Positions 8,773-13,950 of a DNA stretch of 14,228 nucleotides are shown here, piece by piece (within the stretch, counting starts at the first letter, position 1; each line of letters starts with the position of its first letter). The notes under the pieces were generated by a model. It made no database searches and was not told the origin of the DNA. It was given only the letters and a program-made list of their open reading frames with translations. Source of the DNA: Chitinophagaceae bacterium (GTDB lineage Bacteria > Bacteroidota > Bacteroidia > Chitinophagales > Chitinophagaceae); assembly GCA_023251285.1 (NCBI GenBank), contig JAHEZB010000010.1, forward strand, positions 1-14,228, in the 5' to 3' direction. The position numbers and the translations under genes were made by a program.

Positions 8773-9726
8773 TTATAATTGTTTTCTTGATGATTTTAAA
8801 GCGATCAGCGGTGAACACTTTTTTGTAAACTCTTTCATCGCATTCACCAGCAATAAATTAAAGTTTGTTGTATTGTTAAAAATATCAAGTGAGTACTGCG
8901 CGTCTAAATCAGTTGCTACTGTTGGCAATCCCAAAAACGACAGTATTGAATTATCAAAATTTGTTTTAGCTGCTAACACACCGTTCAACGATGTTTGGAT
9001 ATCCGGAGAGAAAGTAAGGATCTGCGGAAACGTAGTTACAAGTCCGGTCACACGCGACAAACTTGTACCGATCGATAGCGCATTTTTAGTTAAGAAAGCA
9101 GTTGTATTTACAGCTTCAGCTGCAAATGCCTGGCCTCTTAATAAAAGAGTTACAGGCGCTGTGATTAAATTTTTTACTCTGTTTATTTCATTATTAATTG
9201 AGTTCACTGCCAGGTTAGCTTCACGCATTGCCATCAATATCATTGCATCAGGAGTTAACGGAGGCACAGGAACACTGGTTGGAGTAGGGCGATTAGGATT
9301 AACTGCAAACGCATTGAGCAGAGCTCTTTTTTGTGCAGACTTCATTTTATCTGCTTCATAAAATTCCCGCAATCCAATGTTCACATCAATATCGGTGTAA
9401 GCTCCATCCTTATCCGTATCGTTCACTATTCGCTCCAGGGTGGTGATCACAAACGTTCCTTCAAAGTAACCGGTGCCGTAAATCAATGGTAAAATTTCAC
9501 CATCGTCCCGGTACCTGTTTAATGCATCGTATTCAACTTCCGGATTACAAAAAGCAATATGAAATTTTACACTGATGGAGAATTCATCCAATGCATTACC
9601 GGTACGTTGCAGACGCGGCTTGCCATCTATCAATGTATGCTCAGCATACACCGCTTCCTTTTTATCAGACATAGATGAAAAACCTTTCAGAGCTTCAAAT
9701 TTTATTTCACCTAGCTGGGCGTACAT
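8773..9726 (-). CDS. U: gpU-like tail/baseplate protein with a long C-terminal extension
   Basis: The frame encodes 317 residues. The first ~135 match P2 gpU: MYAQLGEIKFEALKGFSS, then YAEHTLIDGKPRLQRTGNAL, 'SISVKFHIAFCNPE' and IYGTGYFEGTFVITTLERI, ending in GLREFYEADK. gpU acts in tail completion or baseplate assembly. P2 gpU is about 159 residues. Here a proline-rich linker (NRPTPTSVPVPPLTPD, about 145-160) leads to a ~155-residue helical domain. A two-part layout also occurs in Mu gp43-like 'DNA circularisation' proteins, which occupy the same place between tape measure and hub; equivalence is my inference. The start is translationally coupled to the tape measure by TAATG. Confidence 0.83.
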   Translation of the reverse strand: MYAQLGEIKFEALKGFSSMSDKKEAVYAEHTLIDGKPRLQRTGNALDEFSISVKFHIAFCNPEVEYDALNRYRDDGEILPLIYGTGYFEGTFVITTLERIVNDTDKDGAYTDIDVNIGLREFYEADKMKSAQKRALLNAFAVNPNRPTPTSVPVPPLTPDAMILMAMREANLAVNSINNEINRVKNLITAPVTLLLRGQAFAAEAVNTTAFLTKNALSIGTSLSRVTGLVTTFPQILTFSPDIQTSLNGVLAAKTNFDNSILSFLGLPTVATDLDAQYSLDIFNNTTNFNLLLVNAMKEFTKKCSPLIALKSSRKQL

Positions 9727-11423
9727 TAATATTTACCTCTGTTGTTTTTTCGGTTTGCTTCATCTATCATTTTCACCAGCTCTCCCTGATGCGTTTTTAG
9801 CATCGCTCTAAAATCTTCTTTACTTCCACCGCCACCCATGTGGATCACCGGTGCGTAAGTAATTGTTATTCCACCTGCATTCCCTGGAGAACGCTTCCCT
9901 GGTGCAGCACTTCCTCCCATAGCTGAGGAAGCTATAAGCGTTGTGGCAGCAACCCTTCTCATTGCTTTCATCATTGGTTGCGGTTTCATTGTATCCGCAA
10001 TAGTTTCAATAATTCTAACCCTGTGAAGATCTTTTAAAGGACCAACTTTTGCTGGTGAGAAAGGAAGATAATCCCGGATCTTACCAACCATATTTTTTAT
10101 AGCCTCAACAGGACTATTAACAAAAGCTTTTATTCCATTCCATATTGATTTTACTATATTAGCCCCTGCATTATAGAAGCGTGGGCCCAAGCCTTTCATC
10201 CATTCCCAAAATGACGAAAAGACATTTTTAACCTTTTCCCACAACCCTTTGAAGAAGGCAACTATTTGCGGCCAAAATTTTATAATGAATCCAACTGGTC
10301 CTATAAATAATATTCCCCATTCTTTTACCCAGGAAACAACTTTCCAAAACATATTTTTTATGCCGGCCCATAAGTTCACAAAGAAATCCTTAATACTTTG
10401 CCACACACTTTTTATCCATTTAACTATCGGATCCCAATACTTTACAATCAAAAATATTGCTGCAGCTATTCCCGCAATAATTAACACGATTGGGTTTGCT
10501 GCTAAAAAATTAAATACCACACTCAACCCATTGACCACGCTCATCACAGTGCTGACACCCATTGTTACAATTTTTAATGTAGTGCCAAGCGCCAGCAAAC
10601 CTACACCCACACCGGCAACTACTTTTATGAGCGATTTATTATTTTCTACCCAAGCTTGAATGGCTGGTAAATGTTTTTGAATATCTTTCATAACTGAATT
10701 TACTGCAGGCAATAAAACTTTACCCACTGTTTCCACCACTTCACTCCAACTCACTTTCATTTTAGAGGCTTCTGTAGCGGTAGCTTTGGCAACACCTCCT
10801 ACTTGTTTTTCAACAGCTTTCATGATCAGTTCCTGGGCTTTCAGCTTCTGATTTGATTCTACTAAGGTTTTAATTTTAAGACGCTCAGCTTCACTGAAAG
10901 TGATCCCGGATTTTCGTAAAGCAACTATTCCCCTGATAGGATCCTGAAGCGCCTTACCTAATTGTACTGCATTTCCGGATGCTTCACCAAACCCAGTAGA
11001 AGCCATATCAAACGCGGCCTGAGTAGCGCGGTCCATTATTCCTGTTGTACGCGCGACCGCATCACTTACACTTTTAAACGTAGCAAGTTTAGCTTGTACA
11101 GCTAAAATTTCTTCATCTTCAATTCCGATTTGCGCTGCTAACTGATCTGCGTATTTTTGATTTGCAAGTAATGCTTGGTTGGTAGTTTCACCCATCGATT
11201 TATAAACCTGCTGAAGTCGTTTTACAGAAACTTCATTTTCTTCAGCTGCATCAACTGTGGCTCCGAAAAAAGCCGTCATGGCTCCCCCGGTAATAGCCAT
11301 TTTAGTACCGGCTCGGTTTATACCATCTAAATGCGTATTAGCCTTTGCAAAAGCACTATTAATAACCCCGCTCATCTGATCTACGGCAGTCAAAACCAAC
11401 GCTACTTCAAGGGCCTTATTCAT
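9726..11423 (-). CDS. T: Tail tape measure protein
   Basis: The frame encodes 565 residues. The protein fills the tail tube lumen during assembly and sets tail length. The N-terminal third is helical and hydrophilic, with AITGGAMTAFFGATVDAAEE at about 43-62 typical of the family. Hydrophobic segments lie at about 265-330 (VVAGVGVGLLALG; PIVLIIAGIAAAIFLIV). Next comes a tryptophan/phenylalanine-rich repeat region at about 330-425 (WIKSVWQSIKDFFVNLW and similar units). The conserved DYLPFSPAKVGPLKDL (about 451-466) marks the C-terminal region that contacts the baseplate. It is shorter than P2 gpT (about 815 residues). At about 0.15 nm per residue it would imply a tail of roughly 85 nm, which is an inference. 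Its ATG overlaps the TGA of the frameshifted chaperone extension. Confidence 0.93.
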   Translation of the reverse strand: MNKALEVALVLTAVDQMSGVINSAFAKANTHLDGINRAGTKMAITGGAMTAFFGATVDAAEENEVSVKRLQQVYKSMGETTNQALLANQKYADQLAAQIGIEDEEILAVQAKLATFKSVSDAVARTTGIMDRATQAAFDMASTGFGEASGNAVQLGKALQDPIRGIVALRKSGITFSEAERLKIKTLVESNQKLKAQELIMKAVEKQVGGVAKATATEASKMKVSWSEVVETVGKVLLPAVNSVMKDIQKHLPAIQAWVENNKSLIKVVAGVGVGLLALGTTLKIVTMGVSTVMSVVNGLSVVFNFLAANPIVLIIAGIAAAIFLIVKYWDPIVKWIKSVWQSIKDFFVNLWAGIKNMFWKVVSWVKEWGILFIGPVGFIIKFWPQIVAFFKGLWEKVKNVFSSFWEWMKGLGPRFYNAGANIVKSIWNGIKAFVNSPVEAIKNMVGKIRDYLPFSPAKVGPLKDLHRVRIIETIADTMKPQPMMKAMRRVAATTLIASSAMGGSAAPGKRSPGNAGGITITYAPVIHMGGGGSKEDFRAMLKTHQGELVKMIDEANRKNNRGKY

Positions 11424-11904
11424 TGTTTAGGGTTTAATTTATCGTGTGATTTTAACGCCTCTTTATACCAAAAATCCAAATCCACCAAACTCCACTCAAG
11501 CAATATATTTAATGGTGTATGCGAGAAATGGGCTAGGAACATTATATCTCCCGCCCGGACTAAAAATTTATTGCAGCGAATCTTGCAAAGATCTTATTGT
11601 AATCCTGCATGCTAAGTTCTGCGAGATCTTCAGGAACAATATCCTTATTATCAATAGTAACAAGCTGTGCCATCAGCGTAGCCATATACAACTTTGATTT
11701 CCCTTCTGATTGATCCATTGCTTCCTGGGCATGCTTACCCTTACCTGATAATATCAGGGCTTTTCTGCCATCCGATAAAATGATTTCATTAACAGGAGCT
11801 AAAGGTGCAGGAACTACTTCTGCAGCAGGCGCTGTTTCTTTTTGTACCGCTGTGATTTCAGGTGCTGGTGAATTAGGAGTTTCTCCTGGTGTGTTTGTTT
11901 CCAT
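11420..11904 (-). CDS. Tail assembly chaperone, frameshifted E+E' form (161 residues)
   Basis: A -1 ribosomal frameshift at 11563-11569 would join the 114-residue chaperone to a second frame, open for 47 codons (from 11563 to 11423) and ending in TGA at 11420-11422. The extension contains GDIMFLAHFSHTPLNILLEW, then SLVDLDFWYKEAL. Its spacing and residues (DI..F, P, L, slvdLdfWykeA) match the E' region of P2 and the Phage_P2_GpE family as I recall it. The TGA overlaps the ATG of the tape measure as ATGA. In P2 (E/E+E') and lambda (G/GT) the long form binds the tape measure while the tube polymerises. That this frame is open, family-like and exactly fills the gap is visible; that frameshifting occurs is inferred. 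Confidence 0.82.
11521..11554 (-). promoter_or_regulatory. Candidate stimulatory hairpin downstream of the slippery site
   Basis: On the minus strand GCGGGAGA (11554-11547) can pair with TTTCTCGC (11528-11521). This gives an 8-bp stem with two G-U pairs and an 18-base loop. The stem starts 8 bases after the slippery heptamer, inside the 5-9 base spacing of known -1 frameshift stimulators. The loop is large and stability was not computed, so the role is tentative. Confidence 0.45.
11560..11904 (-). CDS. E: Tail assembly chaperone, short form (gpE-like)
   Basis: The 114-residue product of normal decoding stops at TAG (11560-11562). Residues 1-38 are rich in Pro, Ala, Glu and Thr and probably disordered. 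The conserved part begins at EIILSDGRKALILSGKGKHA (about 40-59) and continues with MDQSEGKSKLYMATLMAQLV and DLAELSMQDYNKIFARFAAI. This is the pattern of Mu gp41 / phage tail assembly chaperones: a beta hairpin, then a helix with '.......M..A..a....', then a '..dl..lt..D........' end. It sits between tube and tape measure, the usual place for the chaperone. The ATG at 11904 follows the tube gene by a 62-base gap that contains a hairpin. Confidence 0.87.
   Translation of the reverse strand: METNTPGETPNSPAPEITAVQKETAPAAEVVPAPLAPVNEIILSDGRKALILSGKGKHAQEAMDQSEGKSKLYMATLMAQLVTIDNKDIVPEDLAELSMQDYNKIFARFAAINF
11563..11569 (-). promoter_or_regulatory. Slippery heptamer for -1 ribosomal frameshifting (A AAT TTT)
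   Basis: Read on the minus strand in the chaperone frame, the sequence is A AAT TTT followed directly by TAG. It satisfies the X XXY YYZ rule with X = A and Y = Z = T. After slipping back one base, both tRNAs can re-pair (AAA and TTT), and decoding continues in the E' frame. The adjoining stop codon slows the ribosome and favours slippage. Position, frame and the downstream conserved extension all agree. Confidence 0.8.
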
Positions 11905-11929
11905 GTGTTTTTTTTCATATTAAAATTAG

Positions 11930-11961
11930 TTGCGGGATAGGGATTCGAACCCTTCCCGCAA
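11930..11961 (-). other. tRNA-like acceptor/T-arm minihelix in the tube-chaperone gap
   Basis: In the minus-strand RNA, UUGCGGGA (11961-11954) pairs perfectly with UCCCGCAA (11937-11930). AGGG (11953-11950) pairs with CCCU (11942-11939), with a single bulged A (11938). The 7-base loop is UUCGAAU (11949-11943). The loop and its closing G-C pair match the tRNA T-loop rule (T54 T55 C56 R57 A58 ... C61). The 3' side reads as a tRNA 3' end: 5 T-stem bases, 7 acceptor bases, then A as discriminator and CUA rather than CCA. There is no D arm, anticodon arm or variable region, so it is not a tRNA. It lies 5 bases after the tube stop. It may stabilise or process the mRNA or end part of the transcripts; there is no strong U-tract after it. 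Confidence 0.72.
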
Positions 11962-11966
11962 TATTA

Positions 11967-12485
11967 TTAGATGCCTAAATTGGCGCGGTATTGCGCTAAA
12001 ATATCAACACCCTTCACTTTGTAAATATTAGCCAACAGATCTATCTCAAGAGTTTCAACACCATCAATTTCCATCTTGCAGTACGTTACAGAAAGGTTTG
12101 TTTCTAACTCAACGTTGTCATTCTGTTTGAAATTTCCTGTAGGGAAATCCTTTGCAGTTGCTGTCATATAAATAACAACAGGAACCTCAGCTGAACGGCC
12201 ACCGGAAGAATACGTTTCCAACGAAGAGCGCACCTGCAGGTTCAAAGGCAGTATCGGATTTCCAACTTTATCCAAAACATCCTTATAAAAACTATTCCAT
12301 TTAATTTTTGCCTCCATCTTTTCTATTCCGGAGAAAAACTCAACTGCGCCAATCATTCCAAGGGCCTTATGTTCAGCCATCTTGTGTTTGATCGTTGGAG
12401 CCATCACCTCTTCCGCACGTCCTAATAATGAATTTCCATTCATATAAATGTTTGCGTTTGTTACTCTTTTTATTTCTTGTGACAT
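11967..12485 (-). CDS. FII: Major tail tube protein
   Basis: The frame encodes 172 residues, matching P2 FII in length. Stacked hexameric rings of this protein form the inner tail tube. Family features include the N-terminal NANIYMNGNSLLGRAEEV (about 10-27), then APTIKHKMAEHKALGMIG and FFSGIEKMEAKIKW (about 50-64). Later come a central strand set and the C-terminal MEIDGVETLEIDLLANIYKV followed by GVDILAQYRANLGI. The C-terminal 'G.d.la..R..LGi' end is typical of P2-like tubes. The gene starts 43 bases after the sheath stop, the largest gap upstream of the minihelix, and has no Shine-Dalgarno sequence. The unusual hairpin follows its stop codon. Confidence 0.94.
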   Translation of the reverse strand: MSQEIKRVTNANIYMNGNSLLGRAEEVMAPTIKHKMAEHKALGMIGAVEFFSGIEKMEAKIKWNSFYKDVLDKVGNPILPLNLQVRSSLETYSSGGRSAEVPVVIYMTATAKDFPTGNFKQNDNVELETNLSVTYCKMEIDGVETLEIDLLANIYKVKGVDILAQYRANLGI

Positions 12486-12528: not shown

Positions 12529-13950
12529 TTACTTTATGGATGCTAATAAATTAATATCAATAAAGCTGTTAAATGTGATTCTTTCCATCGGTGTTGGAGG
12601 CATAAAGTCTAAGCTGAAAAGAACATGTCCTGCAGCTAATTCAGGCGCTGAGTTTAGCGCCGGATTGTAAGTACATTTTCCATCAACGATCGCTCCGCGA
12701 GATATCAGTGAGCGAATGAATGCATTTACACTCGCACGTACACTATCAATAACTGCTTGTGTAATTGGCTTATCAACAAATTGCAACATCGCCAGTTCAA
12801 TTGACTCATGCATAATATCAGCTGTACGTTGCACGTTTTCAAAATTTGAAGGAGCAGTACTTGCCGGGAAAGAAGCAGATCTGTTACCCCACAATCTCAA
12901 GCCTGTTCCAAAAGAATTAAAAACAGTGGTAATACCTTTTTCGTTCAATAAATTTGCATCAGTTGTTGCATCATTTATTGCAGCGCTTATTTTTCGTTCA
13001 GTTCCTAAAATACCTTTGATCTCATGGTTCGAAGCGGATATCCAATACCCTTCATTACTATCAACAGCTGCGCGAACTCCTGCAGCCCATTGTGAATAAG
13101 GTGTATCGATGATCGTATCCGTTGCAATATCATAAGCCTTCAGCATTGGGAAAAATAATCTCGCACGTTTACTTGCAGTAATAAAATTGATCGTGCTTGC
13201 AGGTCCGCGACCGGCAATTGCACCTGCTACAGTTGTGCCTGCAGGAGCATCTAAATATGCAAATGCTTTATGAAGATCTGCCTGGGCGATCATTTCTACA
13301 GCAACTGTATTTAATGATGAGTAACCAGGTGCAATAAATATTTTCGGTTTAAATCCAAACAAGTTGTATGAATCAACAAAACATTTAAAGCCGGTTCTTG
13401 CTTCAGTTGACCCGTCAACCGTTCCGATAACCAGCGCAGCAATAACACCTGCTGCATTCAGTTTTTTATAAGTAAATTTCAATGTCAATCCATCAGTGAT
13501 TGCAGCATTCAGGATAACCAGGTTCCCGTACACATCAATAGTGTAATCTGTACCTACTGTGTAAGTGGTAGACCCCGCAGAATTTTTAACCACAACTGCA
13601 GCTGCACCAACCGGATTGAATGCGGTTTTTACTTTACGGCTTGCAACTGCAGCCGAAACCTCATCGGTTACAGTAGTCGCCATTGCCGTTTCATCCCAAA
13701 TATTTACCACCAGTACTGTTCCTGCGCCTTGTTTAAATATCGCATCCAGGGCTTGCGGAATATTTAATCCTGTTAAAGGAGGTCCGAATTGTGCCGCATC
13801 CTGGGCATTGTTTACAAGCGTTAATGTTTGTTTAGGACCTGAAGGTGAAATACCAACCAACCCGATAACAGCTGATTTTACAACTGAAATAGGCACTGTT
13901 CCATTTAATAATTCGATGGTTTCAACACCATGTAGATAATTTGCTGCCAT
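12529..13950 (-). CDS. FI: Tail sheath protein
   Basis: The frame encodes 473 residues of the contractile sheath, whose shortening drives the tube through the envelope. The N-terminus MAANYLHGVETIELLNGTVP, then VKSAVIGLVGISPSGP, is the hallmark of P2 FI-like sheaths. FGPPLTGLNIPQALDAIFKQ (about 55-74) is the next conserved block. Residues about 95-165 form a beta-rich inserted domain (TVGTDYTIDVYGNLVI; LTLKFTYKKL). P2 FI is about 396 residues, and this domain explains most of the difference; such insertions decorate the outside of other sheaths. The C-terminal region contains HVLFSLDFMPPTPMERITFN, the conserved strand that links to neighbouring subunits. The start overlaps the preceding stop as TAATG. 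Confidence 0.95.
   Translation of the reverse strand: MAANYLHGVETIELLNGTVPISVVKSAVIGLVGISPSGPKQTLTLVNNAQDAAQFGPPLTGLNIPQALDAIFKQGAGTVLVVNIWDETAMATTVTDEVSAAVASRKVKTAFNPVGAAAVVVKNSAGSTTYTVGTDYTIDVYGNLVILNAAITDGLTLKFTYKKLNAAGVIAALVIGTVDGSTEARTGFKCFVDSYNLFGFKPKIFIAPGYSSLNTVAVEMIAQADLHKAFAYLDAPAGTTVAGAIAGRGPASTINFITASKRARLFFPMLKAYDIATDTIIDTPYSQWAAGVRAAVDSNEGYWISASNHEIKGILGTERKISAAINDATTDANLLNEKGITTVFNSFGTGLRLWGNRSASFPASTAPSNFENVQRTADIMHESIELAMLQFVDKPITQAVIDSVRASVNAFIRSLISRGAIVDGKCTYNPALNSAPELAAGHVLFSLDFMPPTPMERITFNSFIDINLLASIK

Follow-up and report, generated by a model that had tools for sequence, protein, structure and literature searches.

The hairpin between the tail tube gene and the putative tail assembly chaperone gene of this phage contig is most likely, to judge from its comparison with related loci, a reduced phage initiator-tRNA gene. 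The case for a reduced tRNA gene is made by its structure, its homologous position, the covariation of its intact relatives and a match to a covariance model. The element, an acceptor/T-arm minihelix, lies at 11930..11961 on the - strand of the window, by which we mean the whole stretch of 14,228 nucleotides that was analysed.

We lean, with modest confidence, towards a reduced initiator-tRNA gene that today acts as a structural boundary where the sheath-tube mRNA ends and has no tRNA function. Its ancestor would have been a phage initiator tRNA gene (CAU anticodon, mismatch at 1:72) of the kind that is still whole between the tube and chaperone genes in some relatives. Loss of positions 8-49, with the D and anticodon arms, and restoration of pair 1:72 would have produced the 12-bp hairpin of acceptor and T arms that stands 6 nt past the tube stop codon. 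The minihelix may now mark where this mRNA ends, in a slot that is taken in other members of the group by a terminator-like or GC-rich hairpin. Its effect there would be to stabilise the tube message, which is abundant, at its 3' end, to reduce read-through into the chaperone and tape-measure genes, or both, and it would no longer work as a tRNA.

Gene context, sequence and fold

The called genes of the window are all on the - strand. The tail sheath protein gene (12529..13950; PF04984, PF17482) is followed by the tail tube protein gene (11967..12485), which encodes 172 aa and belongs to Pfam PF04985 (Phage_tube), a family labelled 'head closure' in PHROG 55. Next come a gene of 114 aa (11560..11904), named a putative tail assembly chaperone by its position and with phrog_21320, of unknown function, as its sole match, and the tape measure gene (9726-11423). 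The tube/chaperone gap (11905-11966) is 62 nt long. The first-pass annotation had called it the longest gap not covered by a coding frame, which holds in substance, although the gap at 11424-11559 is longer (136 nt) and mostly covered by an open -1 frame. The frame shares sequence with the end of the chaperone gene and reaches almost to the start of the tape measure gene; a chaperone extension made by frameshifting, or a small next gene, would look like this.

The 5' strand of the acceptor stem (UGCGGGA, tRNA positions 1-7) occupies 11954..11960, its first base being 6 nt past the tube stop codon, and the identical seven letters are present in the complete tRNA of a related locus, L012. The T-stem and T-loop follow at 11939..11953, with four pairs (AGGG at 11953-11950, CCCU at 11942-11939; position 49 is missing) and the 7-nt loop UUCGAAU (11949-11943). 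A single bulged A at 11938 corresponds to tRNA position 65. The 3' strand of the acceptor stem (UCCCGCA, 11937-11931) and the discriminator A73 (11930) make up 11930..11937, and U(-1) at 11961 pairs with A73, one pair beyond the 7-bp acceptor stem and the 4-bp T-stem, for a total of 12. The acceptor stem and T-arm have the tRNA signature U54 U55 C56 R57 A58 with G53:C61, and four of five T-stem pairs. The 44-nt segment 11925-11968 had a minimum free energy of -19.3 kcal/mol (z -4.88), and none of 200 shuffles folded as well. The near-perfect 12-bp hairpin with the loop UUCGAAU that had been noticed at first reading was thus borne out by the fold, as was its description as a copy of the acceptor/T-arm half of a tRNA without D and anticodon arms: the layout matches, with G53:C61 and A73 present.

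The four-arm cloverleaf of Rfam RF00005 was not found at the minihelix, the D and anticodon arms being absent, and no tRNA was called there by ARAGORN or by Rfam at E ≤ 10. The window element has no 3' RCCA and carries A-CUA instead. The spacer between the discriminator and the chaperone start codon (11905..11929), which begins with this CUA, contains no U-tract of the terminator type, and the hairpin was not called a terminator. The hallmarks of an initiator, an unpaired 1:72 and a CAU anticodon, were likewise absent from the window element; U1 is paired with A72 (position 72 is A), unlike in the 10 intact relatives.

The 3' strand of the minihelix is the exact complement of TTGCGGGATAGGG, the first 11 letters of which are the 5' end of the L012 tRNA plus one flanking base. 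Template switching at a quasi-palindrome could be the source of the near-perfect stem.

Intact tRNAs in the gap of related loci

Loci with a homologous tube or sheath were sought in IMG/VR (8 scans, three of which returned the best 80 of 116, the best 80 of 445 and the best 80 of at least 565) and in one species-level genome scan (46 loci). Removal of duplicates and short flanks left 160, then 181, then 214 distinct loci, the window being counted each time; the 214 loci are a sample, not a census. Among the sampled loci, the closest tube gene was 69% identical to that of the window. Annotated phages included no DNA-level relatives of the window, and the protein-level relatives among them came to 241 records, every one below 60% identity.

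A complete tRNA-Met(CAU) in sense orientation was found by ARAGORN in the tube/chaperone gap of 10 of the 181 sampled loci (L004, L012, L016, L061, L108, L111, L126, L113, L121 and L219). As the tRNAs of L108 and L126 are identical, these represent nine distinct tRNAs. Position 1 of the tRNA was 5-8 nt past the tube stop codon in nine of the ten loci and 58 nt past it in L061, and CCA was encoded only in L016 and L121. No new gap tRNAs came from the later scan that gave the best 80 of 445, from the 33 loci added to reach 214 after a scan with the sheath alignment, or from a search with the L052 tube. The one other ARAGORN call in the 181 loci (1.05 Mb) was a tRNA-Thr in L279, inside a tandem repeat: about four tandem copies of the palindromic unit GGGCGGGTTTGAAACCCGCCC open the tube/chaperone gap after the tube stop codon of that locus.

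Outside the near-identical group L108/L111/L126, the intact tRNAs were 57-78% identical to each other. In an alignment of the nine distinct tRNAs, 94.1% of the cells were paired, and 14 of the 21 pairs had changes on both sides (mean of 8.4 after shuffling; as high in none of 500 shuffles). The covariation score was 0.660, compared with 0.188 for shuffled and 0.086-0.128 for slid alignments. The only pair that was never formed was 1:72, unpaired in 9/9 distinct tRNAs and 10/10 loci, as U.U in L004, L012, L016, L113 and L219, A.A in L108, L111 and L126, and C.A in L061 and L121. An unpaired 1:72 marks bacterial initiator tRNAs, and the initiator-like tRNA of two Flavipsychrobacter metagenome-assembled genomes (MAGs) has C.U here, which is consistent with this mark. 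A11:U24 is a further initiator feature and was present in seven of the eight intact-tRNA rows with letters at these positions.

The phage tRNAs were also compared with 31 distinct tRNAs of one Flavipsychrobacter MAG, read from 30 of the 35 tRNA matches in that genome. The initiator-like tRNA of the MAG was the sole best match for eight of the ten phage tRNAs, was tied for L219, and was second, level with tRNA-Pro, for L012. On sequence criteria, the intact gap tRNAs are real and initiator-like. They resemble the bacterial initiator tRNA (tRNA-fMet) in the CAU anticodon and the unpaired 1:72, but the three G:C pairs (GGG/CCC) beside the anticodon loop occur in only four of the ten (L061, L108, L111 and L126), and the window element differs from tRNA-fMet further, with neither anticodon nor D arm and with 1:72 paired. 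The D arm of the L113 tRNA is eroded.

Degenerate forms and covariance model search

The only parallel to the reduced form of the window is L052, a locus with a truncated tube. All acceptor pairs 2-7 are kept in L052, together with five T-stem pairs and the T-loop UGCGAGU; CAU is absent, and no 7-nt anticodon loop is visible at the proper place. In both degenerate forms 1:72 is paired (U1:A72), against a mismatch in all ten intact tRNAs (Fisher test, p 0.015, or 0.022 with near-copies merged, kinship being ignored in both). An anticodon-blind scan of the 181 loci for the acceptor/T-arm layout recovered the 10 intact tRNAs, the window and L052, in all of which the six pairs 2-7 are complete, and four further matches (L062, L096, L103 and L312). 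The same six pairs are complete in L062 and L312, whose loops do not have U54-U55, and the matches in L062, L096 and L103 fall past the start of the next called gene.

A covariance model (R1) was made from the nine intact tRNAs, with the window and L052 left out, and was searched in 54 sources, 11 of them (76 kb) with filters off and 43 (284 kb) with default filters. The 11 sources gave 12 matches in total. The first was the window minihelix (11960-11930; 18 bits, E 0.015) and the second was L052 (404-476; 13.6 bits, E 0.26); the near-palindromic nature of the element put the + strand of the window third (13.2 bits), and the nine matches beyond these scored 8-10 bits. The 10 intact tRNAs were found in the 43 other sources at 54.8-94.6 bits. 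An unrelated match at L181:6241-6286, about 2.8 kb past the tube gene, reached 17.1 bits (E 0.1) and is probably due to chance. With such a match in the set, the R1 score of the window is unconvincing by itself, and position is the stronger argument. Over the 3' half of the minihelix, 20 of 23 letters were shared with the phage tRNA of L121, compared with 18 for the best of the 31 Flavipsychrobacter tRNAs.

A chance or terminator-like hairpin with an accidental T-loop resemblance had also been proposed at the outset. Hairpins, terminator-like or other, are common at this site in the relatives, and bare minihelix layouts do arise by chance: in 160 loci scanned on both strands (915 kb) there were seven matches besides the window, although only the window had all seven acceptor pairs, and mononucleotide shuffles of the same loci gave a mean of 4.15 matches of equal minimum quality. 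The decisive evidence against chance is position, since intact tRNAs stand at the same place in relatives. This explanation was rejected because the relatives carry whole tRNAs there, the nearest relative L004 included, and because a U-tract is absent; with the R1 match added, we regard it as very improbable.

The minihelix might be an inert relic, i.e. a phage tRNA pseudogene left by an internal deletion and without present function. In a quick tube tree of 98 rows, the window, L004 (intact) and L052 grouped together (support 85, order unresolved), L004 and L052 were the nearest rows to the window by path, and L219 and L012 were on long branches. The tRNA-like label (window and L052) required one change (support 78) and the tRNA label six, of which starred branches in the tRNA group force three; gains, losses and exchanges of modules therefore look frequent, as an inert relic would lead one to expect. 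The eroded D arm of L113 points the same way, as does L106, which has past its tube stop codon only CCGCAACCA, similar to a tRNA 3' end. Moreover, the nearest tube is only 69% identical, so that the minihelix lacks a close copy by which selection on its stem could be shown, and it could be inert. Against this, all 12 pairs of the minihelix are intact, 1:72 is now paired where all the complete relatives are mismatched, and the gap is the largest of the window except for the one mostly covered by the open frame. We consider an inert relic unlikely.

The short gap of L106 opens directly after the tube stop codon with CCGCAACCA, which resembles the 3' end of an initiator tRNA; the resemblance may be accidental or may mark where a tRNA was lost.

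Origin of the contig

The contig that carries the window, C103 (45.8 kb), had been placed in the bin of an archaeal genome, G000, whose tRNA set was read as archaeal and in which ribosomal L21e is present. As a control, L21e was found only in the four archaea among 14 genomes. When the tube was sought in 99 genomes (G000 and 98 relatives), it was found in G000 itself only. The nearest relatives of the window tube with a named genome of assigned phylum belong to Flavipsychrobacter (Bacteroidota; 67%, L060 and L064), and neither of these loci has a tRNA in the gap. The phage contig was probably misbinned in the archaeal genome, and the host of the phage is probably a bacterium.

These observations bear on the suggestion that the hairpin is a tRNA 3'-end remnant left by recombination. 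Descent from a tRNA was upheld by the intact tRNAs at the site, but the source would be a whole phage initiator tRNA and not a host 3' end. Capture of a host tRNA 3' end was rejected, no close match being found in G000; this is a weak test because G000 is archaeal and the phage host uncertain. In its specific form, the hairpin would be the core of an attP site, copied from the 3' end of a host tRNA and serving in site-specific integration, and tRNA gene fragments do often stem from the integration of phages and other elements (PMC9897764). Yet the 5' acceptor strand is present as well, relatives have the whole tRNA, and the site is within the tail operon. The only other match in G000 to the 21-base 3' part (up to three mismatches) was a tRNA-Leu, in a genome that may not be the host. 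We give the attP explanation almost no credence.

Relation to tRNA processing and to known systems

The minihelix may be cleaved by RNase P or RNase Z. If the minihelix were still a substrate of host RNase P, RNase Z or both, the mRNA would be cut between the tube and the chaperone genes, and as these enzymes recognise the acceptor/T domain, this domain would be kept while the decoding half was free to go. The window and L052 fit such a pattern, in that both have lost the anticodon while acceptor pairs 2-7 are all retained, with four or more T-stem pairs, and human ELAC2 clamps the same kind of acceptor/T minihelix (PMC11996679). Several features argue against it. The encoded RCCA is replaced by A-CUA, the U(-1):A73 pair hides the usual cleavage point, and the 5' strand, 6 nt past the stop codon, would be within the footprint of a terminating ribosome. 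In addition, the 3' processing of the D-armless human mt-tRNA-Ser(AGY) is inefficient (PMC11996679), and the two cases may be one event, as the single change on the quick tree suggests. Processing of the present minihelix is a tentative possibility to which we attach a rather low probability.

A broader form of this idea is that the initiator-tRNA gene itself punctuates the tail operon in a group of tailed phages: host RNase P and RNase Z would cut the late mRNA between tube and chaperone and release a phage start tRNA late in infection, and lineages such as the window and L052 would keep the cutting signal only. This seems doubtful to us; if true, the released tRNA may top up or replace the start tRNA of the host, for instance when host toxins destroy it.

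Among known systems, the AT1-type minimal substrate of RNase P consists of acceptor stem, T-stem and T-loop (PMC11143913). The window element shares this architecture and the canonical T-loop of that substrate. It differs from it in being a natural element of a phage mRNA, with no CCA, with one bulge and with positions -1 and 73 able to pair. In the tRNA punctuation of mitochondrial polycistronic RNA, tRNAs stand between protein genes. The phage loci are alike in that protein genes of one strand are separated by a tRNA or something like it, but they have just one such element, within a tail operon, and any processing of it would be hypothetical. The tRNAs of the relatives are phage genes, as other phage-borne tRNA genes are. 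The latter are usually clustered and of mixed identity, unlike the lone initiator at one fixed tail-operon site that was seen within the flanks read.

No report of a lone initiator-like tRNA at a tail-operon boundary was found among the titles and abstract openings listed from an open-licence library. That such a tRNA is kept by deeply diverged phages at one tail-operon boundary is unusual. Complete tRNA, anticodon-less form and bare minihelix make up a natural series. It allows one to ask whether the enzymes that process tRNAs influence how phage operons are expressed, and what a phage would gain from a start tRNA of its own.

The gap downstream of the tube gene as a boundary

Terminator-like hairpins, called by one fixed rule within 130 nt of the stop codon, were found after 37 of 214 tube genes, 0 of 211 sheath genes and 11 of 174 chaperone genes, and at 6 of 214 random places. 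The gap is therefore a recurrent slot for boundary elements, and in some lineages a tRNA or its relic fills it. Strong hairpins in general say less, being no speciality of the tube/chaperone gap (tube 78/214, chaperone 68/174, sheath 37/211, random 41/214). None of the 12 tRNA or tRNA-like loci had a terminator in the gap, which is not significant (chance 0.10 on the whole set). Many relatives lack any element, the gap being shorter than 30 nt in 82 of 181 loci. In its position, the window hairpin is like an intrinsic terminator between phage structural genes, as found in the 37 related loci, but it differs in having no U-tract. The likeliest present role is that of a hairpin at a boundary or at an mRNA 3' end.

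In L412, L413, L420, L431 and L434 the tube stop codon is followed by clear terminator-like stems, of the ACCGAT..ATCGGT type and accompanied by a T run. After these stems there is a TATATTTACG-like sequence, which is perhaps a Bacteroidota-type promoter for the chaperone.
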